Made by a program: the position numbers and the translations under genes. Under the pieces are notes generated by a model that was not told the origin of the DNA, made no database searches, and saw nothing but the letters and a program-made list of their open reading frames with translations. From assembly GCA_014384025.1 (NCBI GenBank), contig JACNGQ010000216.1:1-34965 (forward strand): 34,965 bases of DNA, written 5' to 3'. Positions 6,460-28,166 of the stretch are shown here, one piece after another (the first letter of the stretch is position 1; each line of letters opens with the position of its first letter). The stretch is from Planctomycetota bacterium (GTDB lineage: Bacteria > Planctomycetota > Phycisphaerae > Sedimentisphaerales > Anaerobacaceae).

Positions 6460-7050
6460 ATGGCCTCAATGGAAAGCACCGATAAAAGTTTGGTTGAAGC
6501 CCATTGTAAGGGCGACCCGAAGGCGTTTGGTGAGCTTGTACGCCGATACGGGGACGGTTTGCTGGGATATTTAACGCGAATGAGCAGGAATCGCCATGAA
6601 GCTGAGGACCTTTTTCAGGAGACCTTTAAGCGTGTACATGAAAAAGCCCATACATTTCGAGGCAGTCAATTTAAGAGCTGGCTTTTTACGATTGCGACAA
6701 ATGCGGCTATCGATGGTATGCGGAGGGGCAAAGGGATACGAATGTTATCGCTGAATCAGAAATTCGATTGCAATGACGCCGACAGCGAAGAGCTGAGCAG
6801 CGTTGCGCTGGCGGACGATTCGTATGAGCCATCGCAGGAGGCGGCGAAGGCCGAGCAGGTCCAGCAGGTGAGAGAGGCCGTGATGTCACTGCCTTCGAGG
6901 CAGCGGGCAACGCTTGTGCTGGCCTATTATCAGCAGCTTAGTTACCCGGAAGTGGCGAAGGTTTTAGGCTGCTCCGTCGGCACGGTGAAAACACAAATGT
7001 TCAGGGCACTGAAGACCTTAGGGCAAAAATTACCTGATGTTCAGGGGTAG
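6460..7050 (+). CDS. ECF (RpoE-type) RNA polymerase sigma factor
   Basis: Group IV sigma-70 family protein of 196 aa, the usual length for the class. Region 2 covers about residues 24-90 (YGDGLLGYLTRM, AEDLFQETF, SWLFTIATNAAID) and region 4 covers about 140-190 (LPSRQRATLVL, YPEVAKVLGCSVGTVKTQM, a helix-turn-helix). The middle linker is acidic. GGAG at 6452-6455 lies close to the ATG; a second ATG at 6469 is possible. Its stop is 4 bp before the ATG of the zinc-finger anti-sigma gene, the classic sigma/anti-sigma layout, and four more genes follow on the same strand. The role inferred is envelope-responsive control of its own operon. Confidence 0.95.
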   Translation: MASMESTDKSLVEAHCKGDPKAFGELVRRYGDGLLGYLTRMSRNRHEAEDLFQETFKRVHEKAHTFRGSQFKSWLFTIATNAAIDGMRRGKGIRMLSLNQKFDCNDADSEELSSVALADDSYEPSQEAAKAEQVQQVREAVMSLPSRQRATLVLAYYQQLSYPEVAKVLGCSVGTVKTQMFRALKTLGQKLPDVQG

Positions 7051-7054
7051 TAAA

Positions 7055-8968
7055 ATGAAACATCATCTTACAGAAAAAGAGCTTATCGAATACCAGTTCA
7101 AACTGGCCTCGGATGCACAGATGAAGGAGGCGGCCGAACATCTGGAAGGCTGCGGCCAATGCCGGGGGAATCTGGAGAAACTGCAGCGTAAATATGCGGC
7201 TTTGGATTTGCTGGGTGAGAAGGCAGAGATTTCCGAGGATTTGATTACACGTGTTACCGAGCAGGTGAGAAGACCTGTAGTGAAAACAATTGCCTGGTTT
7301 AAGAAGCCTTTGTGGATGAGTTCGGCAGCGGCTGTGCTGGTAGTAGGATTGGTGCTGGTTGCTAATCAGATGGGCAAGGATGGGACAAAGCAACGGGAAA
7401 TTGCTCAAGAGCCGATGCCAACGGTGGATAAAATGGAACTACGAAGCGGCCAGTCAATTGCACCGATGACGGAAATGGAAGTAGCAAGCAAGCCGGAGAG
7501 TACACAGGCCAGGGCTTTGCAAAAAAATGATATGTCAAGGAAGGCAACACTTGCGATGGCGCCTAAGGAGAAGGCTGATACGTATGTTGCGATGGATAAA
7601 GCTTCGGATGATGCGATATCCGAGCAGCCGCCCTTTGCACCGGCAAGTGCGATAGAATTAGTTACTCTGCCGAGGCGGGACAAGGTGCAGCTTACGATTT
7701 ACAATTCCGCTGATATGACGTTGGTGCGGGAGAGGCGGAATTTGACTATGAAGAGGGGGTGGAACTGGCTGCAGTTTATGTGGGCCAATACATTGATTGA
7801 TCCGACGTCGTTGTCACTTGAGCCGCTGGCAGAGGCGGATAAAATTAATATTGAACAGTTGGTGTTTCCAGCGAGGCTGCGGGAGCTTGGCCGCTGGCTC
7901 ATCCATTCAGAAGTCAGCGGCCAGGTACCGTTCGAGATAACGTATTTCACGAGCGGTATTTCCTGGCGGGCGTTTTATATGGGAACTCTCGCAGAAGATG
8001 AAAAGACGATGCAACTGCAGGGCTACGTGCGAGTGGCCAATAACAGCGGGGAGGATTATGAGGAGGCCCAGACCCGGCTGATTGTCGGTAATGTTCATAT
8101 TCTCGATGAGATAGCCGAATTGGCCAAACGCCAGTATCCTTATAACAGGCCCATCAGCTTAGGCGAGGCGGGCGGCATGGGCGGCGGTATGATGGTTGGG
8201 GGAATGCTAAAAGGGCAAGAGTTGGATGGAGATCGCTATTTATATGACGTCGCTGCCGATAGTTTTGGCGCTGCTTTCAGCGATAAATTAGGCCGCAAGG
8301 AAATCAGGAAAGAAGGGCTCAGTGAGTATTTTCTTTATTCGATTGAGGGGACCGAGACCATACCGAACCAGTGGGGCAAGAGGCTGCTGTCTTTCGATGT
8401 GAAGGATATTGAAGTCGAGAGCTTGTATAAATACGACGAGGAGCGATGGGGTAATCAGACAATAAGATTCGTTAAGTTTGCAAACGATGAAGAGCATAAC
8501 CTGGGCGAAACGCCGATTCCGAACGGGGACGTAAAACTTTACGGCAAGGCGGACAGTGAAGGCCTTTTATCATACGTTGGTGGGACGAATATCAAGTATA
8601 TTCCGGTCGATGAGGAAGTTGAGCTGAATCTTGGCCCAGCCAGATTGGTCAAAGTTGAGCCGAAACTGATGGATTTCAGGACCGATAATTATATGTTCGA
8701 CAGGAGGGGCAACGTAGCCGGCTGGGACGAGATACGAACGTGGAAAATCGAGATTATCAATACCCGTGAACTGCCGATAGAAATCGAGATTACGCGCGGC
8801 TTTGGGACGGTGTACTGGATCATCGAGTCCGATACTGCTTATGAAAAACATGATGCCACGCATGCTCGCTTTAACTTAAAACCTGAACCCAAAAGCAGGC
8901 AGGCGCTTGAATACACGGTAACGACGTATCACGGTATGCGGGAAAATACATTAACTGGAAATAATTGA
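7055..8968 (+). CDS. Membrane anti-sigma factor: ZAS zinc finger, TM helix, external DUF4139-like domain
   Basis: A 637-aa single-pass protein. The start is set at the ATG 7055, just after the sigma stop, because residues 1-40 then make a normal ZAS anti-sigma domain with His29-x3-Cys33-x2-Cys36. One membrane helix follows at about 87-107 (SSAAAVLVVGLVLVANQ), then a low-complexity Met/Ala/Lys-rich linker to about 200. The C-terminal 435 residues match the two secreted proteins encoded downstream and look like DUF4139, including GETPIPNG and KYIPVDEEVELNLG. A Gly/Met-rich insert splits this region (about 8150-8280). Inference: the cytoplasmic part holds the sigma factor and the external domain senses an envelope signal. 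Calling it simply a DUF4139 protein would miss the anti-sigma end. Confidence 0.88.
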   Translation: MKHHLTEKELIEYQFKLASDAQMKEAAEHLEGCGQCRGNLEKLQRKYAALDLLGEKAEISEDLITRVTEQVRRPVVKTIAWFKKPLWMSSAAAVLVVGLVLVANQMGKDGTKQREIAQEPMPTVDKMELRSGQSIAPMTEMEVASKPESTQARALQKNDMSRKATLAMAPKEKADTYVAMDKASDDAISEQPPFAPASAIELVTLPRRDKVQLTIYNSADMTLVRERRNLTMKRGWNWLQFMWANTLIDPTSLSLEPLAEADKINIEQLVFPARLRELGRWLIHSEVSGQVPFEITYFTSGISWRAFYMGTLAEDEKTMQLQGYVRVANNSGEDYEEAQTRLIVGNVHILDEIAELAKRQYPYNRPISLGEAGGMGGGMMVGGMLKGQELDGDRYLYDVAADSFGAAFSDKLGRKEIRKEGLSEYFLYSIEGTETIPNQWGKRLLSFDVKDIEVESLYKYDEERWGNQTIRFVKFANDEEHNLGETPIPNGDVKLYGKADSEGLLSYVGGTNIKYIPVDEEVELNLGPARLVKVEPKLMDFRTDNYMFDRRGNVAGWDEIRTWKIEIINTRELPIEIEITRGFGTVYWIIESDTAYEKHDATHARFNLKPEPKSRQALEYTVTTYHGMRENTLTGNN

Positions 8969-8995
8969 AAAATTAAAATTTTAGGAGATTGAATT

Positions 8996-10207
8996 ATGAA
9001 CGGTAAAAGAAACAAAGTAATGGCAATTGTACTGCTGCTTATGGTTAGTGCGGTCTCTCATGGCAGGATCAAATTAGTTGCGCTTCCCGAGCGGGCGGCG
9101 ACGGTGATTCGCCTGGATAATCCGAGGGCGACATTGATAGAGGAAGAGCGTGTCCTGACGCTTCAAAAAGGGCTTAACAAGGTGGATTTTTCCTGGAAGG
9201 CTGTGTCTATCGACGCCGACTCAATCCGGCTTCGGGCGCTCGACCACCCCGGGAACGTAACTCTTCTGAATGTAAGTTATCCGCCTAATGAGGCGGCCCT
9301 TGTCTGGGAAATCAGCAGCGAGGGCGACTACGCCGAGAAGGTTCGAATCAGCTATCTGCTGAGCAATATCGACAGGCTGATAACTTATAAAGCAATAGCC
9401 GATAAGGCCGAGACCGCGGTAGATTTGAAAAGCTACTTAGTGCTTAGGAATTTCTCCGGTGAGGATTTCGACAAGGCACGAGTGCTTCTGGATTACGGTG
9501 AGTCGTTCGAGCAGGGCATCGACCACGAGGAGACCAAGCAGATGCTGTTTCTAAAAGCGCCTAAGGTGCCTATTCAGAAGATATGGACGTTCGATGCGGC
9601 CAAGCTTCCGTGGGACCCTGAACAATTAGAAAACATGAATGTCGGTATCCCTGTAAGCTATAGAATTGTGAATAATTCCCAAAGCGGATTAGGCGAATTC
9701 TCGCTCTGGGGCGGCAAGGCACGAATCTTCCAGGATGACGGGCACGAGAGCACCATCTTTCTTGGTGAAGATGTAACTTCAATGGTGCCGGTCGGCGAGA
9801 AAACGGAACTTTATATCGGGGACAGCAGGGACATAGTAGTTACACAACGGAAAATGGAGGAGACCCAGATAAACAAGCGATACAACAACGACAGAACTCC
9901 GAGACTGGTCCTTTACGATACCGATGAAACCATCACAGCAAAGATAGAGAATTTCAAGGACAGCCCCGCGGTGCTTACGATGATACAGCACATACCCGGC
10001 CAGTGGGACATGAAAAACTGCAATATGACGTACAAGAAAAAGGACGCCAACACGCTTGAATTCGAGATTACACTGCCCGCCCGCACGGGGGACGGCCCGG
10101 CCACGAAGGAACTGACGATGAACTATAATCGGCGTAATCTTCGGCCGGGAGTAGATATCAGGCCGATGCCTACGCCAATGCCTACGATGCAACCAGTAAT
10201 AAGATAA
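8996..10207 (+). CDS. Secreted DUF4139-like protein, divergent paralogue
   Basis: Exported 403-aa protein with signal peptide MNGKRNKVMAIVLLLMVSAVSHG. The mature part begins RIKLVALPERAATVIRL, aligned with the LVTLPxRDxVQLTIYN opening of its neighbours but clearly more distant. It shares the general layout: an N-terminal beta-rich domain, the NFSGEDFDKARVLLDYG segment matching NNSGEDYExAQTRLIVG, and a C-terminal half with a LYIGDSRDIVV strand like the DUF4139 ending. It lacks the long variable insert and ends in a Pro/Met-rich tail (PMPTPMPTMQP). AGGAG at 8983-8987 supports the ATG. It starts 27 bp after the anti-sigma gene and 38 bp before the next paralogue. Its function is unknown; family and operon suggest an envelope role. 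Confidence 0.85.
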   Translation: MNGKRNKVMAIVLLLMVSAVSHGRIKLVALPERAATVIRLDNPRATLIEEERVLTLQKGLNKVDFSWKAVSIDADSIRLRALDHPGNVTLLNVSYPPNEAALVWEISSEGDYAEKVRISYLLSNIDRLITYKAIADKAETAVDLKSYLVLRNFSGEDFDKARVLLDYGESFEQGIDHEETKQMLFLKAPKVPIQKIWTFDAAKLPWDPEQLENMNVGIPVSYRIVNNSQSGLGEFSLWGGKARIFQDDGHESTIFLGEDVTSMVPVGEKTELYIGDSRDIVVTQRKMEETQINKRYNNDRTPRLVLYDTDETITAKIENFKDSPAVLTMIQHIPGQWDMKNCNMTYKKKDANTLEFEITLPARTGDGPATKELTMNYNRRNLRPGVDIRPMPTPMPTMQPVIR

Positions 10208-10245
10208 CCAGACCTTGAACCGTTCCAAAATAAAGGAGCTGTAAA

Positions 10246-11592
10246 ATGAAACGTAGAATATTTTCACTATTTATAATCGCTATGATAGCCCGTGCCGGTC
10301 AGGCCAAGGTCGATTTGGTCACACTGCCGACGCGGGATACCGTGCAGCTTACGATTTATAACTCAGCGGATATGACCTTAGTGCGTGAAAGCAGGGCGCT
10401 GACATTAAAAGGCGGCCAAAACAAGCTGCAGTTTTCCTGGGCCAATACACTTATCGACCCAACGAGCCTGGAAATGCTGCCCAAGGCCAATGCTGATAAA
10501 ATTGATATTGCGGATTTGACTTATCCGCCAAGGGTACAAAATCTGGGATTGTGGAACATCGAAAGCGGTGTAAGCGGCAAGGTGCCGGTTGAGATTTCTT
10601 ACCTGACCAGCGGATTAAGCTGGCGAGCATTTTATATGGGAACGCTCACAGAAAATGAAGAGACGATGCGTCTGCAGGGTTATGTACGGGTAACCAATAA
10701 TAGCGGAGAGGATTATGAAAACGCCCAGACCCGTCTTATTGTCGGCAAAGTCCATATCCTCGATGAGATTGCAGAGCTTGCCCGGCGACAATATCCTTAC
10801 GGCAGACCGGGCGAAGGAATTGCACCGCCAATTATGCCGGCTCCCAGAGGCAGAGGAGTGATGGATGATAAAAGAAGATCATTCGCATTAGCAGAAGAAT
10901 CTGTTATGCGCAGTCCAAAAGAAATTACAAAAGAGGGGCTGAGCGAGTATTTTCTCTATACGATTGAGGGCAAGGAGACGATCCCGACCGGCTGGTCGAA
11001 GAGGCTGCTTAGCTTTGAGGTTGATGAAGTTCCGGTCGTAAACCTTTATAAATACGAAGAAGAACGTTACGGCGCCTCAGTTGTTCGATTCCTCAGCTTC
11101 AAGAACGATAAAGAGCACGAATTAGGCGAAACTCCAATACCGGGCGGGATGCTTAAGGTTTATAGAAACGCCGGAGATGAAGGGCACTTATCTTATACGG
11201 GGCAGTCTTCGTTTAAGTATATTCCTGTGGATGAGGATGTAGAGCTTAACCTCGGTGCGGTTGCCGACATTGTTGTTAAGCCCAAGCTGATGGACTTCGA
11301 GACAGATAATTATGAATTCGACAGGCGAGGTGACGTTTCCGGCTGGGACGAGATACGCACATTTAACATCGAAGTCAAAAATACCCGTGACATTAGTCTT
11401 AAGGTCGAGATTAAACGCAACTTCAACACATCATACTGGAATCTGACCAGAAGCGGAGACTTCGGTGAATTTGAGCAGGTGGACATGGATACCGTCAAAT
11501 TTACTTTAGAACTCAAACCAAGGTCGGTAAAGAAATTTGAGTACGTCCTGAGAACATTCCATGGCACAAGAGAGGACGATTGGCGGCGATAA
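10246..11592 (+). CDS. Secreted DUF4139-like protein, paralogue A
   Basis: Exported 448-aa protein with signal peptide MKRRIFSLFIIAMIARAGQA, after which the DUF4139-like region starts at once (KVDLVTLPTRDTVQLTIYN). The ribosome site AAAGGAGC precedes the ATG. It corresponds end to end to the external half of the anti-sigma protein at 7055 and is close to the next gene. A variable, Pro/Arg-rich linker (10810-10920) separates two well conserved halves. The stretch 10957-11333 is identical base for base to 12345-12721 in the next gene, while the flanks differ, which points to gene conversion. No catalytic residues or metal sites are evident. Probably periplasmic or cell-envelope; function unknown. 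Confidence 0.88.
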   Translation: MKRRIFSLFIIAMIARAGQAKVDLVTLPTRDTVQLTIYNSADMTLVRESRALTLKGGQNKLQFSWANTLIDPTSLEMLPKANADKIDIADLTYPPRVQNLGLWNIESGVSGKVPVEISYLTSGLSWRAFYMGTLTENEETMRLQGYVRVTNNSGEDYENAQTRLIVGKVHILDEIAELARRQYPYGRPGEGIAPPIMPAPRGRGVMDDKRRSFALAEESVMRSPKEITKEGLSEYFLYTIEGKETIPTGWSKRLLSFEVDEVPVVNLYKYEEERYGASVVRFLSFKNDKEHELGETPIPGGMLKVYRNAGDEGHLSYTGQSSFKYIPVDEDVELNLGAVADIVVKPKLMDFETDNYEFDRRGDVSGWDEIRTFNIEVKNTRDISLKVEIKRNFNTSYWNLTRSGDFGEFEQVDMDTVKFTLELKPRSVKKFEYVLRTFHGTREDDWRR

Positions 11593-11630
11593 TTAACAAA
11601 GCCATAAACAACAGCATAGAGGGCAGTAAA

Positions 11631-12983
11631 ATGAAACGTATAATTTTTACATTACTGATAATCGTTGTGACAAGTGTTGCCGGCCAGGCCAAGGTTGATT
11701 TGGTTACACTTCCTACACGGGACACCGTACAGCTTACGATTTATAACTCGGCGGACATGACCTTAGTGCGTGAAAGCAGGGCGCTTACACTCAAAGACGG
11801 GAAAAACAAGCTGCAATTTTCCTGGGCCAATACACTTATCGATCCGACGAGCCTGGAAATGCTGCCCAAGGCCAACGCGGACAGAATTGATATCACGGAT
11901 TTAACTTACCCACCAAGGGTAAGAAATCTGGGACTGTGGAACATCGAGAGCGGAGTAAGCGGCAAAGTGCCAGTCGAGATTTCGTACCTGACCAGCGGCC
12001 TTTCGTGGCGGGCGTTTTATATGGGCACGCTTACCGAAGATGAAGAGACGATGCGCCTGCAGGGTTATGTACGGGTAACCAACAACAGCGGTGAAGATTA
12101 CGAAAACGCCCAGACACGCCTGATTGTCGGCAAAGTGCATATCCTCGATGAGATAGCCGAACTTGCCCGGCGGCAATATCCTTACGGGACACCAGGAGTG
12201 ATAGAACCAGAAATGGAAGGATTAGTAGAAAAACTGGAGATGGCTAAAAAGGTAATGGTCCTGAGTAGTCTCGCTGTCGATGCCGAAGCACCTTCATCTA
12301 AACAAAAGGAAATCATAAAAGAAGGCCTTAGCGAATATTTTCTTTATACGATTGAGGGCAAGGAGACGATCCCGACCGGCTGGTCGAAGAGGCTGCTTAG
12401 CTTTGAGGTTGATGAAGTTCCGGTCGTAAACCTTTATAAATACGAAGAAGAACGTTACGGCGCCTCAGTTGTTCGATTCCTCAGCTTCAAGAACGATAAA
12501 GAGCACGAATTAGGCGAAACTCCAATACCGGGCGGGATGCTTAAGGTTTATAGAAACGCCGGAGATGAAGGGCACTTATCTTATACGGGGCAGTCTTCGT
12601 TTAAGTATATTCCTGTGGATGAGGATGTAGAGCTTAACCTCGGTGCGGTTGCCGACATTGTTGTTAAGCCCAAGCTGATGGACTTCGAGACAGATAATTA
12701 TGAATTCGACAGGCGAGGTGATGTATCCGGCTGGGACGAAATACACACATTTAACATCGAAGTCAAAAATACCCGCGACATTGGCGTTAAGGTCGAGATT
12801 AAGCGCAACTTTAACACATCTTACTGGAAGCTGACCAGAAGCGGTGACTTCGGTGAATTCGAGCAGGTGGACATGGATACCGTCAAATTCACTTTAGAAC
12901 TCAAGCCAAGGACGGCAAAGAAATTTGAGTACGTGCTGAGAACATATCACGGCACAAGAGAGGATGACCGGGAAAAGGAATAA
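11631..12983 (+). CDS. Secreted DUF4139-like protein, paralogue B
   Basis: Exported 450-aa near-duplicate of paralogue A. The ATG at 11631 is preferred over an in-frame TTG at 11580, because it follows GAGGGCAG and gives a normal signal peptide (MKRIIFTLLIIVVTSVAGQA). The TTG would overlap the previous gene and bury the signal sequence. The variable linker (about 12190-12310) is Glu/Met/Lys-rich and unrelated to that of paralogue A. From 12345 to 12721 the DNA is identical to paralogue A. It is the last gene of the sigma-led operon; no strong hairpin terminator is visible behind it, and the next gene has its own promoter at 13028. Confidence 0.88.
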   Translation: MKRIIFTLLIIVVTSVAGQAKVDLVTLPTRDTVQLTIYNSADMTLVRESRALTLKDGKNKLQFSWANTLIDPTSLEMLPKANADRIDITDLTYPPRVRNLGLWNIESGVSGKVPVEISYLTSGLSWRAFYMGTLTEDEETMRLQGYVRVTNNSGEDYENAQTRLIVGKVHILDEIAELARRQYPYGTPGVIEPEMEGLVEKLEMAKKVMVLSSLAVDAEAPSSKQKEIIKEGLSEYFLYTIEGKETIPTGWSKRLLSFEVDEVPVVNLYKYEEERYGASVVRFLSFKNDKEHELGETPIPGGMLKVYRNAGDEGHLSYTGQSSFKYIPVDEDVELNLGAVADIVVKPKLMDFETDNYEFDRRGDVSGWDEIHTFNIEVKNTRDIGVKVEIKRNFNTSYWKLTRSGDFGEFEQVDMDTVKFTLELKPRTAKKFEYVLRTYHGTREDDREKE

Positions 12984-20715: not shown

Positions 20716-21933
20716 TCAATTTAAAATCGAGTACGATTGCGGACGAGCCGCTATTTCGGTAGCTTTGTCACCGGCCTTGCTGAATTTCCGAAGAATCTCT
20801 TTGATCTTATCTTCTCTTAGCTTCTTCAATCCCTCCGTCAAATCAGACTCGCGCAGCATAAATTCAATAAAGTACTTACCTTCACCTTCGCCGATGGGAA
20901 TACTTATCTTTCCGACATAACCTTCACCGGCACTACTACTTTTAGGTTTTGCTGGAGCAGCTACTTTTTGGAGGTGCACTGGTCCTTTTATCTCTATGTA
21001 ATTATCTCCGATATGAGTTTCCCCGTCTACAGTATTTACTATATTTAGCAAGGCCTGCTTGAGTTTTATATTTTGCATGTTAACAGTTATTTCTTCTTCC
21101 AGCCATGATGGCTCTTCCTTTGCTATCACAAGTTCCATACCAGTCCATCCGGCAAGCCTTTGAAGTATCACATCAGCCCTATCAATCCTTTTGCCTTCAA
21201 AGGAGATATCAACCACCTGGTCAAGCTTCGCTTCCCGAAAATCCTCTTCATTAACCATTCTTATCACAGGGGCCTGACCAGGAAAATCCATTCCCGAAAG
21301 ATACCACCTTGGTGTCTTGTACTTATCACCCACCTGTTCCAATATAACAGTAAAAAATACAGGCGCAATTCCTTTGTCAGTTGACATCATTTTAAATATC
21401 TCAGACATTCTTTGGGGTACGTCATACGGTAAAAAAGAGACTCCATCAAACGCTCTCCTTATAAGATCCAAGGCATTCTCGAAAGAAAAACTACCGTCAA
21501 ATGACAGTTTCATTGAATAGATTTTCTTAAGCAGTTCAAGTTGTTCAGCATTTGGCCTGCCAAGAATATGCTCTAGCTCCTGCCGGGGATATATCGTAAT
21601 TTTATCATCACCCACGGCGTAACGCATAAAAAATGCGTTCAGCATCTCTGTCAAACTGTCAGCCAATGATCCATCATTAAGCGATGCCGACAATCTTGTG
21701 GCCCTACCATTAGGCAACTTCCATTCCGCCTCATCAGATAAAACAATCTTCGCTCCCAACTCCGATCCGATGTCGTAAAGGGCTTCGGCAATAGTAACAT
21801 CCTTGAATTCGAACTCCGCTTGTTCTTTGCTGAGACTGTCCAGCAATTGTTGTTGGTCAGCCTGCGTATAGCAGGTTACGATACCTATTATTATGACTGC
21901 AACAACCATTTTTCTTAAATTTATCGCCTTCAT
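20716..21933 (-). CDS. Secreted protein with two STN/secretin-like short domains, in ECF cluster
   Basis: A 405-aa exported protein. The start is set at minus-strand ATG 21933, since AGGAGAC (21944-21938) precedes it and gives signal peptide MKAINLRKMVVAVIIIGIVTCYTQA; an upstream in-frame ATG at 21975 has no site. Residues about 30-125 (EFEFKDVTIAEALYDIGSELGAKIVL) are typical of the STN domain found at the start of secretins and TonB-dependent receptors. A second STN-like unit lies at about 255-325 (VDISFEGKRIDRADVILQRLAGWTGMELVI). No barrel or secretin pore follows; the C-terminus is charged. It is the third gene after an ECF sigma and its membrane partner. Inference: a periplasmic signalling partner for that pair. 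Function unproven. Confidence 0.78.
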   Translation of the reverse strand: MKAINLRKMVVAVIIIGIVTCYTQADQQQLLDSLSKEQAEFEFKDVTIAEALYDIGSELGAKIVLSDEAEWKLPNGRATRLSASLNDGSLADSLTEMLNAFFMRYAVGDDKITIYPRQELEHILGRPNAEQLELLKKIYSMKLSFDGSFSFENALDLIRRAFDGVSFLPYDVPQRMSEIFKMMSTDKGIAPVFFTVILEQVGDKYKTPRWYLSGMDFPGQAPVIRMVNEEDFREAKLDQVVDISFEGKRIDRADVILQRLAGWTGMELVIAKEEPSWLEEEITVNMQNIKLKQALLNIVNTVDGETHIGDNYIEIKGPVHLQKVAAPAKPKSSSAGEGYVGKISIPIGEGEGKYFIEFMLRESDLTEGLKKLREDKIKEILRKFSKAGDKATEIAARPQSYSILN

Positions 21934-21962
21934 TTTTGTCTCCTTTATTTCAAAATTAATAT

Positions 21963-22400
21963 TTACATTAAACATGCAAAGTCATTTTCGTCTCTGCTTT
22001 GCCCATTATCCGCTACTTTTGGTTCACTTGTACGAATTATAATCCAGGTCGATTGGTCTTTTCCCTGATTGCCCTGTTTATTGGAATCAAGTATCTCGAC
22101 TTTGGCTGAGCCTTTACTCTCAATAAATGTCACTATTGCTTTTCCACCGTTCTCAAATCGTACCGTCGGCGGCGTATCAGTTTTTATTATTACGGCGATA
22201 AACACAACTGCCGCAATCGCAGCAATTCCAGCGGCTATCTTAAATACACGTCTGTATTTAATTGTTGAGGTTTTACTATGGTCGGCCTGGCTCAGCCTTT
22301 TCGATATCGATGTCTGTAATCGGTTCCAGTTAACACCGGCTAACTGTTCGCTCTCATTTTGTCTGAGCAGAAGGTCTATTTGTTCTTTTTCATTTTTCAT
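21963..22400 (-). CDS. Putative single-pass anti-sigma factor without zinc finger
   Basis: A 145-aa protein with a charged N-terminal region (about 1-50, ending TSTIKYRR), one membrane helix (about 53-72, FKIAAGIAAIAAVVFIAVII) and a short external part. Its ATG overlaps the sigma stop by four bases (ATGA, 22400-22397), so translation is coupled and the pair is very likely functional. No HxxxCxxC zinc motif is present, so it is not a ZAS-type anti-sigma; the N-terminus (VNWNRLQTSISKRL) is of unknown type. The anti-sigma role comes from position, topology and coupling, not from a recognised domain. The STN-domain gene follows. Confidence 0.7.
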   Translation of the reverse strand: MKNEKEQIDLLLRQNESEQLAGVNWNRLQTSISKRLSQADHSKTSTIKYRRVFKIAAGIAAIAAVVFIAVIIKTDTPPTVRFENGGKAIVTFIESKGSAKVEILDSNKQGNQGKDQSTWIIIRTSEPKVADNGQSRDENDFACLM

Positions 22401-22963
22401 TCCAGATAATCTTTCAGTAATACCTTAAGCTTTTGTCTTGCCTTGAATACATACCACTTTACCGACTCTGTAGAGCAACCCATAATCTCGGCGACTTCAT
22501 CTCGCGGCAATTCTTCAATTCCAATCAGGGCTATCGCCTGTGCCTGTTTTTTCGAGAGCTTTAACATCACCCGCTGTATTTCTTCTTTTAATTCTTTGCC
22601 GGCTTCCTTTTGCTCCGGCGTAAAAACTTTCTTGCTCTCACAGTCTCCTGAAATTTTTATTTTTTCCGCCCTGCCTCTGGCGGCTCTTCGCTGACTGATA
22701 GCTGTATTGGCAATAATCCGAATAAACCATGCCTCGAACCTCTTGGGTTCCTTTAATTTATCAATACTTAGATAAGCCTTCACAAACCCATTCTGAACAG
22801 CCTCAGCCGCCTCATCTGCATCACCCAGCATTCTTACAGCCACCTGTATCGCCCGCCGTTGATACAAACCCACAAGCTCATCAAACGAAGCACGATCCCC
22901 TGTCTGGCTTGCCTTGACCAGCCGTTCAATACCATCGGTGTTTGTTTTCGGGTTACCATTCAC
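22397..22963 (-). CDS. ECF RNA polymerase sigma factor
   Basis: A 188-aa group IV sigma factor. Region 2 is at about 25-95 (DRASFDELVGLYQRRAIQVAVRM, FVKAYLSI, AWFIRIIANTAIS) and the region 4 helix-turn-helix at about 132-182 (LSKKQAQAIAL, PRDEVAEIMGCSTESVKWYVFKARQKL). The linker between them is Lys/Glu-rich. The start is GTG at 22963 with AAGGAAG upstream. It leads a three-gene minus-strand unit (sigma, membrane anti-sigma, STN protein). It differs clearly from the ECF factor at 6460 and is partnered with a different anti-sigma, so the two circuits are probably separate. A possible AAC-N17-GTCTA promoter lies at 23007-22983. Confidence 0.93.
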   Translation of the reverse strand: MNGNPKTNTDGIERLVKASQTGDRASFDELVGLYQRRAIQVAVRMLGDADEAAEAVQNGFVKAYLSIDKLKEPKRFEAWFIRIIANTAISQRRAARGRAEKIKISGDCESKKVFTPEQKEAGKELKEEIQRVMLKLSKKQAQAIALIGIEELPRDEVAEIMGCSTESVKWYVFKARQKLKVLLKDYLE

Positions 22964-22982
22964 AAATACTTCCTTACCCTTA

Positions 22983-23007
22983 TAGACTCACAAATTCCAG
23001 GAACGTT
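22983..23007 (-). promoter_or_regulatory. Candidate ECF-type promoter before the second sigma gene
   Basis: On the minus strand AAC (23007-23005), then 17 bases, then GTCTA (22987-22983), about 20 bases before the GTG start. The pattern fits ECF promoters, and no good sigma70 pair was found here. Short motif, weak evidence. Confidence 0.25.
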
Positions 23008-26516: not shown

Positions 26517-28166
26517 CTACTCGTAAATATTCGTAGATTCCGTTTCTTCAACCGGACGCGTAAGCTGGTCAACATTCATAACGGCTTTGAAGCGTACATC
26601 TCCGGGCTTTACGGCTGCGACGACCACACGCCAGGCGGCTCTGGCCTTCGGCTCAAGACTGCTTAAGGGGTAGAACTTCACCATTTGTCCCTCTAAAGAA
26701 CCGGCAGTTGCGCCCGCTGAGGAAACATATTGAACATTACCTTCCAAAAGACAATTGATGCGGATATTTGTGGCGGCAGCAGAACCCTGGTTCGTAACAC
26801 TGATTACGTATGTCGTTTGTGAGCCGACTTTTACCGGGTCTTCGACGTCAACGACTTCCAGCGACACTGCGGAAATCCCTGTTACCTCAGTCGGCACAGA
26901 AGCAGTTACAGCCTCCGAACAGTATGCAGTTACGGTTGCGCTATTCGTTTGCATACCAGGCTCTGTCGGGACATAGGAAACACGTACTTTTTTGATGCTA
27001 TTCGGCGCTAGAGTACCGAACTCCCAGATCAATTTTGAGCCGGAAAGCTTTGCGCCCTCATCTGCTTCTATAGAGGTAGCCCCATTCGGGACGGTATCTT
27101 CGACAATAGTATTTTTAGCCGGTATATCCGACTTATTGGCAACTGTTATTTCGTAAGTTACCTTTCGACCGAGATAATGTTTTCTTGGGACGTTGTTTTC
27201 AATTGTCAGTACAGGCAGACTTACAATCGTAGTAGTTTCTGCTGATTCTGCTCTCAGGCCTGTAGCCGAGGTGGCCACTGCTTTGCTGGTGTACCTGCCA
27301 ACCTTTGCCGCACGCAGTTCAGCCGAGAATTGCCGCGACTGACCTTCGGCCAATGTACCTACATCCAAAACTAATTTACTCTTGCCGTCGGTTGTTCGCA
27401 GCCCGATGGAAAGTTCGTCAATGATTCTGACATTTTGCGCGGATCCTGTACCTGAATTGGTCACCACGAATACAACCGGAATCGCCTCACAGAGTAATGC
27501 CTCATCCGGCGCTACCCTCGCCAGCTCTAACCTGGGTTGAACGATTCTTATAGGAGCACAAGCCGGGATGATAGGTGTAATAACAGTTGTGCAATGCTCA
27601 AGGGAATCGGCGCTCGAAGCCACACCGGAAACTGTAATTCGCTTGCTGGCTTTAGGCCCAAGTGATTTTATCTCCCACACAAGTTTATCCACATCTTTTC
27701 TCGCTGCCGGATTTGACCTTGTGAATTCGAAACCACGTGAAAGCTCTTCGTTTACCACAATATCGGTCAGTACCGCTTCCGTCAGGTTTGTAACTGCGAT
27801 GAAATAATCAAACGACCTGTTTAGTTCGACTTCTCTCGGCACGGTCTTGTCCAATCGAACAATCCCGCATTCCGGCCATGGATAGGTCATCGAGATCACG
27901 GCCATGTCGGACTGACTGAGAACTACCAGTTGCCTACCCTCGCTGACAACAGGTCCATCTATCCGAACAGGCAAACCACCCAGAGGAGCAGGCACTGCAT
28001 TGATTGGAGCTATAGCTATGGGTTCGTGGCTGCTATCCCAAAAGAACTTTTCAGGCTGCTTTAATTCCGGCTCGCCCTCCTTCGGCTTAAAGAAACTCTT
28101 CATGCTCTCGCAGCCCAGGGAGCTAAATACCAGCAAAATAAGCGAGATAGTCAGGATTTTTTTCAT
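26517..28166 (-). CDS. DUF11-repeat surface/periplasmic lipoprotein
   Basis: A 549-aa lipoprotein. The signal segment MKKILTISLILLVFSSLGC carries a proper lipobox (SLGC, Cys19). After a Pro-rich spacer come four Ig-like repeats of the DUF11/CARDB kind at about 100-200, 210-310, 320-420 and 430-545. Each opens with a 'Y-x-I-x-V-x-N' strand (YFIAVTNLTEA, VVFVVTNSGTG, YEITVANKSDI, YVISVTNQGSA) and then has the 'xxxVVEDTVPxG' type turn. Similar repeats occur in chlamydial OmcB and in many Planctomycetota envelope proteins; a structural or adhesive envelope role is inferred. Cys are few, so it is not OmcB itself. The ATG at 28166 is preceded by AAGGG. It appears to be transcribed alone. Confidence 0.85.
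   Translation of the reverse strand: MKKILTISLILLVFSSLGCESMKSFFKPKEGEPELKQPEKFFWDSSHEPIAIAPINAVPAPLGGLPVRIDGPVVSEGRQLVVLSQSDMAVISMTYPWPECGIVRLDKTVPREVELNRSFDYFIAVTNLTEAVLTDIVVNEELSRGFEFTRSNPAARKDVDKLVWEIKSLGPKASKRITVSGVASSADSLEHCTTVITPIIPACAPIRIVQPRLELARVAPDEALLCEAIPVVFVVTNSGTGSAQNVRIIDELSIGLRTTDGKSKLVLDVGTLAEGQSRQFSAELRAAKVGRYTSKAVATSATGLRAESAETTTIVSLPVLTIENNVPRKHYLGRKVTYEITVANKSDIPAKNTIVEDTVPNGATSIEADEGAKLSGSKLIWEFGTLAPNSIKKVRVSYVPTEPGMQTNSATVTAYCSEAVTASVPTEVTGISAVSLEVVDVEDPVKVGSQTTYVISVTNQGSAAATNIRINCLLEGNVQYVSSAGATAGSLEGQMVKFYPLSSLEPKARAAWRVVVAAVKPGDVRFKAVMNVDQLTRPVEETESTNIYE

Follow-up and report, generated by a model that had tools for sequence, protein, structure and literature searches.

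A conserved extracytoplasmic function sigma factor cassette of Phycisphaerae with a free multi-STN protein as a possible periplasmic co-regulator

Introduction

VreR, the anti-sigma factor of the PUMA3 system of Pseudomonas aeruginosa, is of the FecR type. The same system contains VreA, which is described as a mostly soluble STN protein without a barrel that occurs with a sigma/anti-sigma pair (PMC2729926). Work on FoxA of P. aeruginosa reports that, when no signal is present, its signalling domain is bound to FoxR and prevents FoxR proteolysis, proposes that this domain is cut off and hence acts free, and describes STN domains as interacting with each other (PMC11637429). For the RpoE-RseA-RseB system, it is reported that RseB binds RseA and that cleavage of RseA requires the release of RseB (PMC8103513). 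Here, a cassette from a Planctomycetota bacterium is described, in which genes for an extracytoplasmic function (ECF) sigma factor and a putative membrane-bound anti-sigma factor are followed by a gene for a predicted exported protein with several STN-like units. It lies on contig JACNGQ010000216.1 of assembly GCA_014384025.1 (class Phycisphaerae, order Sedimentisphaerales, family Anaerobacaceae); the whole stretch analysed, positions 1 to 34,965 (34,965 nucleotides), is called the window below.

The three genes are read here, at a probability of roughly 0.55, as one autoregulated envelope-sensing operon whose STN protein may serve as a periplasmic co-regulator, binding and protecting the external tail of the anti-sigma factor. 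The direction of this effect, protection rather than transduction of a signal, is less certain than the partnership of the STN protein and the anti-sigma factor itself.

The cassette and its conservation

A preliminary description, made from the sequence of the window without database searches, had placed three minus-strand genes at 20716-22963, with an ATGA overlap between those for the sigma factor and the membrane protein. Position, overlap and order (sigma factor, then membrane protein, then STN protein) are as described there. The sigma factor gene (22397-22963, minus strand) has a GTG start and encodes 188 amino acids with matches to Sigma70_r2 (E 9e-15) and Sigma70_r4_2 (E 3e-11); its product is 82-84% identical in two relatives, L011 and L012. 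The gene for the putative anti-sigma factor (21963-22400, minus strand; 145 amino acids), which shares the ATGA overlap, occupies the same position in relatives. The third gene is likewise present, though shorter than first thought: its open reading frame was listed from 21975, and the ATG at 21933, with a Shine-Dalgarno sequence GGAG six bases ahead (21940-21943), is the start kept in relatives. Since this ATG is the true start, the predicted exported STN protein (20716-21933, minus strand) has 405 amino acids and not 419, and its gene does not overlap that of the membrane protein.

All three genes are present, with their order preserved, in L011, L012 and L013. Comparison of the window with these relatives gave ratios of nonsynonymous to synonymous substitution rates (dN/dS) of 0.11-0.30 for all three genes, and from these alignments each appears to be under purifying selection. 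The STN protein is 38-77% identical to ten family members and 19-23% identical to six more distant members from the same order; these identities, taken with the dN/dS values, argue that conservation of the STN gene is not due to chance.

The complete trio was found in 11 of 11 family loci (window included) and in five of six more distant loci of the same order, the sixth, L024, ending short of the expected place of the sigma gene. Altogether, 41 related loci were read, which come from different genomes, some of them closely related. A sigma gene lies upstream on the same strand in 35 of these, that is, in 35 of the 37 with enough DNA to judge (L024, L036, L052 and L054 have too little). A single-pass membrane open reading frame stands between the sigma and STN genes in 37 of the 41 loci (36 by script once a false call in L043 is set aside, plus L041), and in L051 only the start of such an intervening frame is seen. 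Gene order in relatives had been proposed as a check in the preliminary description; the STN gene proved to be unlinked in two of the 37 loci (L039 and L043), too few to refute the linkage.

Of the 397 genomes of the class, 145 contain a match to a profile built from 17 STN protein sequences at E≤1e-5, and 128 at E≤1e-13; class-wide, gene context was read for the best 30 matches only, of which 24 were new. Outside the class, 39 of 392 genomes of the phylum matched at E≤1e-10. Full length is reached only by the matches in G000 and G040, two genomes of this order; the other phylum matches are partial (the longest, in G630, covers profile positions 28-307). No sigma gene was found in the fetched flank of any of the 28 loci L071-L098, which is a weak control, as the open reading frame fills the flank in many of them. 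Viral contigs yielded no relative of the STN protein.

The record that contains L012 (CP070751.1) is titled 'Thermoplasmata archaeon isolate bin33 chromosome'. It carries the cassette at 65-82% protein identity with the same DUF1015 gene adjoining, and its label or binning looks wrong.

Domain structure of the STN protein

Taken alone, the STN protein of the window has no Pfam or NCBIfam family match, so the STN assignment comes from its relatives and from its fold. The profile searches that had been suggested gave more when the family was aligned: of the 17 members in the alignment, one being the window protein, 11 match the STN family PF07660 at E≤1 (best 1.6e-12) and four match FecR_C, PF16344, at the same threshold (best 3.6e-9). 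These 17 proteins match nine Pfam families in all, and the secretin pore family PF00263 is not among them. When 10 members were shown singly, L007, L009, L023 and L025 scored above the Pfam cut-off for STN, and L007 and L023 also for FecR_C; all of them belong to the more distant group of the same order. In the window protein itself, no plug, barrel or secretin pore (PF00263) match was found with Pfam, and a lipobox-like motif was absent from 31 of 31 members. Export is predicted from a signal sequence judged by eye from the N terminus.

The AlphaFold model of the protein (mean predicted local distance difference test score, pLDDT, 77.6) contains three STN-like units and a C-terminal module, all encoded on the minus strand. 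STN domain 1 (about residues 30-118; 21580-21846) is supported by VIA structural alignment, and STN domain 3 (about residues 234-320; 20974-21234) by VIA together with profile matches to Protein Data Bank (PDB) sequences. Between them lies the degenerate STN-like unit 2 (about residues 127-228; 21250-21555), recognised from the strand and helix order in the model and from hhalign. The C-terminal module is a predicted beta-hairpin followed by a long helix with an RExDL motif (about residues 339-386; 20776-20919), as seen in the model and in the alignment of 31 sequences. The earlier claim of STN domains without a barrel or pore thus stands for the fold and for the lack of barrel and pore matches, with three units (two clear, one degenerate) in place of the two proposed.

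Foldseek returned nothing at E≤0.001 for the whole model. VIA alignment, run on the candidates from Foldseek, gave Z scores of about 8-11 for units 1 and 3. Unit 1 was found to align with the N0 domain of EscC (10.8), a FecR-like protein (4m0h, 10.0), PupR (6ovk, 9.4) and FpvA (2iah, 8.5), with PupA also among its structural matches. Unit 3 aligned with DotD (7mud, 11.4) and the N0 domain of PilQ (4ar0, 9.5), and the profile search of PDB sequences matched it to PilQ (4ar0, E 0.0022) and weakly to PupA (2a02, E 0.11). By hhalign, units 1 and 3 match at 99.3% (E 3e-20), and on this profile comparison they are clearly related. Unit 2 has the same strand and helix order in the model as the other beta-alpha-beta units, and its W210 is invariant in the 31 sequences; it is termed degenerate because its match to unit 1 is moderate (82.8%, E 9e-6) and that to unit 3 almost nil (14.7%). 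In the C-terminal module, R361 and L365 are nearly invariant in the same 31 sequences, and no similarity of this module to units 1 and 3 was found.

The putative anti-sigma factor

The membrane protein has a short cytoplasmic part (residues 1-45), one hydrophobic stretch (about residues 53-72) and an external tail of about 70 residues. From its position and topology, it would be the anti-sigma factor that holds the sigma factor. The tail was defined by alignment of 11 family members as residues 75-145 (21966-22178, minus strand); in these, W119 and L144 are invariant, P127 and D131 are nearly so, and the last residue is M, L or F. The preliminary description had noted that the protein lacks the ZAS zinc motif, and indeed H-x3-C-x2-C is absent from it and from the other 35 anti-sigma open reading frames tested. 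Such absence is common, as about 44% of class I anti-sigma domains are reported to be without the zinc motif (PMC7406223). The proposed connection with FecR-type anti-sigma factors was not borne out: none of the 11 members has a FecR or FecR_C match in Pfam at E≤1, and the tail is unlike the STN units.

Anti-sigma factors of the wider class have a longer domain that starts with an LL..LLDGDL-type helix. The DW..L...IS.RL segment of the window's protein, with its transmembrane (TM) stretch, aligns with the last helix and TM stretch of the class-wide proteins (hhalign 96.4%, E 1.2e-9), a score that the TM stretch may inflate. The class-wide alignment comprised 19 proteins; L035, L037, L044, L045, L049, L050 and L052 were excluded beforehand for a seemingly doubled or odd domain. 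On this alignment, the longer domain appears to have been shortened in the window's family through loss of the middle part, with two helices left as in CnrY, whose second helix is reported to bind the sigma factor as the fourth helix of class I domains does (PMC7406223). The excluded proteins, inspected by eye, seemingly carry a second anti-sigma-like helical segment ahead of the TM helix.

A candidate promoter

A candidate ECF-type promoter, AACGTT-N14-GTCTATA, is located at 22981-23007 on the minus strand, 17 bases ahead of the sigma start codon. The pattern AACGTT-N14/15-GTCTRTA occurs exactly in six of ten testable family loci and with one to three mismatches in the other four; the eleventh family locus, L016, is masked and lies outside this count. 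The motif ends 11-19 bases ahead of the sigma start in nine of the ten, and in L020 the sigma start used lies upstream of the motif. When each upstream region was base-shuffled 200 times, an equal match never arose for eight loci and arose 5 times for L015 and 10 times for L017. The best matches in four more distant cassettes have two to four mismatches and were equalled by 4, 35, 48 and 124 of 200 shuffles. The conserved motif suggests that the cassette may be autoregulated.

Genome-wide, the number of motif matches is not above chance, and only the position ahead of the sigma gene is telling. The window's genome has one exact match, and the reversed control pattern also occurs once. Ten cassette genomes hold eight exact matches, six of them directly ahead of the sigma gene, with seven for the reversed control, and ten same-family genomes without a match hold two, with ten for the control. 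A regulon could not be read from this promoter, as sites with up to two mismatches numbered 30 against 75 for the reversed control in the window's genome and 36 against 72 in G005.

On contig C58 of the window's genome (L119, 55804-55831, minus strand), a site with two mismatches was noticed that shares 55 of 65 bases (85%) with the promoter and leader of the window. It precedes an open reading frame of at most 607 residues (467 read) that by eye is exported and hydrolase-like and has no Pfam match; its GFSAS motif is one which we take to be hydrolase-like. The protein was found in two of 14 genomes searched (the window's own and G065), and no such promoter was found ahead of the G065 copy. 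The gene is a lead only.

TonB receptors and secretins in the genome

No TonB plug domain was found in the window's genome (95% complete, 4% contamination) when it was searched for PF07715 only, not for the barrel PF00593; as a control, the search gave matches in three of 14 control genomes (E. coli, Caulobacter and Bacteroides). Over the 397 genomes of the class, a Plug match is present in 52 of 128 genomes with the STN protein (E≤1e-13) and in 114 of 269 without it (Fisher p 0.83), where 17 genomes with weaker STN matches were counted as without; the other 76 of the 128 have no Plug match. Since Plug and STN protein occur independently of each other, the cassette seems not to need TonB receptors.

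Secretin was matched 14 times in the window's genome, in 12 open reading frames. PF07660 gave three hits there (E≤0.01), each in a frame with a Secretin match as well. One open reading frame, on contig C445 (L056), matches Secretin three times and STN once; at 1995 residues, it is unusually long for a secretin.

Other genes of the window

The window contains another ECF sigma gene (6460-7047, plus strand), followed by three DUF4139 proteins (7037-8965, 10246-11589 and 11580-12980); no STN match was found around it (6460-12980, plus strand). At 26520-28166 on the minus strand, a protein of 549 amino acids is encoded with repeated DUF11, CARDB and a match to Chlamydia cysteine-rich outer membrane protein 6.

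Proposed mechanism and alternatives

According to the mechanism proposed here, the sigma factor would be kept at the membrane by the single-pass anti-sigma factor. At rest, the exported STN protein is most likely bound to the latter's short external tail, perhaps by beta-strand pairing, and in this way may shield it from site-1 proteolysis. Once a presumed cue occupies the STN protein or takes it away, the tail would be exposed; regulated proteolysis of the anti-sigma factor would then free the sigma factor, which would transcribe its own operon from the AACGTT/GTCTRTA promoter until fresh anti-sigma factor and STN protein end the response. A free STN protector is favoured because the gene order is like that of rpoE-rseA-rseB, the fold is that found in FecA, FoxA and VreA, and FoxA and RseB offer precedents.

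Several observations weigh against this reading. Loci L039 and L043 carry a full-length STN gene with enough DNA, yet no sigma/anti-sigma pair upstream. The anti-sigma tail is not similar to the STN units or profiles and, because the protein also lacks FecR domains, STN-STN pairing of the PupR/PupB type cannot be assumed. No similarity between the tails of the window's family and those of the wider class was detected (hhalign 0.23%), though their STN partners are alike, and the STN scores in the window's own family are all under the Pfam cut-off. The AlphaFold model of the anti-sigma factor is poor (pLDDT 47, 11 sequences), with two helices predicted ahead of the TM helix, and it was kept out of the fold search. 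Unit 1 aligns with phage baseplate proteins no less well than with secretins, so the fold alone does not fix function. Finally, deletion of vreA is reported to be without effect under phosphate starvation in PUMA3 (PMC4971064).

The conserved linkage and the STN signalling-domain fold would also suit a positive transducer that senses a periplasmic or outer-membrane partner, docks on the tail and triggers sigma release, a receptor-less form of cell-surface signalling in line with the older model of such signalling as summarised in PMC11637429. This is unlikely, as the anti-sigma factor has neither FecR nor FecR_C, its tail is not STN-like, the newer FoxA data described in the same source favour protection (PMC11637429), and the promoter ahead of the STN gene is apparently autoregulated, an arrangement expected of a feedback component. 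The earlier suggestion that the STN protein passes a signal to the anti-sigma factor is turned round by the FoxA work, which suggests that a freed STN domain protects the anti-sigma factor instead (PMC11637429). The receptor-less pathway proposed with it stays plausible, given linkage in 35 of 37 loci, no barrel or pore match, no lipobox-like motif (0/31) and no PF07715 match, but it is not new, VreA being a precedent (PMC2729926). A more doubtful account assigns the STN protein to a secretin machine (type II secretion or type IV pilus) that the sigma/anti-sigma pair senses, with free STN units pairing with N0 domains. The secretin matches of the genome, with all three PF07660 hits in Secretin frames, the fold matches to secretin N0 domains and DotD, and the reported interaction of STN domains with each other (PMC11637429) would fit; the linked genes, however, are a sigma and an anti-sigma gene, among the immediate neighbours of the cassette, whose flanks were not systematically searched, no secretion gene was seen, and the fold alone names no partner.

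One can speculate, with less confidence again, that the cassette is a class-wide envelope sensor of Phycisphaerae with the soluble multi-STN protein as its sensing part, which would monitor the N0 domains of unassembled or misplaced secretins and exchange them for the anti-sigma tail. Such monitoring is suggested by the other STN domains detected in the genome, which sit in secretin-type frames, and by the lack of a plug match; if so, the cassette would be a secretin-stress sensor and not a siderophore pathway. Least probable of all is that the third gene is a mere co-transcribed target of the sigma factor without a regulatory part. Its downstream position in the operon and the occurrence of the STN gene without the pair in L039 and L043 are compatible with this, but the same three-gene order extends through the class and the STN fold is typical of anti-sigma partners.

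Comparison with known systems

The cassette could show whether an anti-sigma factor that lacks an STN or FecR domain can be regulated by an STN domain, and whether the free-STN mode of VreA and of the proposed cleaved FoxA is a general form of receptor-independent signalling. As the operon is conserved and includes a clear third component and a promoter candidate, this ECF circuit of a little-studied class could be rebuilt in a laboratory strain.

The STN protein takes the place of RseB in rpoE-rseA-rseB and has the STN fold of FecA, FoxA and VreA. With RpoE-RseA-RseB, the cassette shares the order of sigma factor, single-pass anti-sigma factor and exported periplasmic protein (PMC8103513), and it differs in the STN fold of the third protein; Pfam scans of members, which included 17 STN proteins and 11 anti-sigma factors, gave no match to an RseA or RseB/MucB family. 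As in FecI-FecR-FecA, an ECF sigma factor stands beside a single-pass membrane putative anti-sigma factor, and in the Fec and FoxI-FoxR-FoxA systems an STN signalling domain is described as acting with such a pair (PMC11637429). Unlike these, the cassette has no TonB receptor, its anti-sigma factor lacks FecR/FecR_C and its STN protein is encoded by an operon gene of its own. The cytoplasmic part of the anti-sigma factor is very short, and two helices are predicted in it at low confidence (pLDDT 47) ahead of the TM helix; it may thereby resemble the class II CnrY-type anti-sigma domains (PMC7406223), from which it differs in that it seems to be derived from a longer domain by loss of the middle.

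The closest likeness in composition is to VreA-VreI-VreR of PUMA3, described as a linked ECF sigma factor, a membrane anti-sigma factor and a free STN protein without a barrel (PMC2729926, PMC4971064). VreA is described there with one STN domain and a TolA/TonB-like C-terminal domain, whereas the cassette protein has three STN-like units. The C-terminal module of the latter is predicted as a hairpin and helix. The order is STN, sigma and anti-sigma (A-I-R) in PUMA3 and sigma, anti-sigma and STN in the cassette, and the PUMA3 operon is reported to be driven by PhoB (PMC2729926, PMC4971064) while the cassette has an apparent promoter for its own sigma factor. The anti-sigma factor of the cassette also lacks a FecR/STN domain, and the cassette is spread through its class. 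No paper on this cassette in planctomycetes was found, subscription literature falling mostly outside the search. As a free-STN circuit is known already from VreA in PUMA3, the cassette probably represents a variant, so far undescribed, of a known type of envelope sensor.

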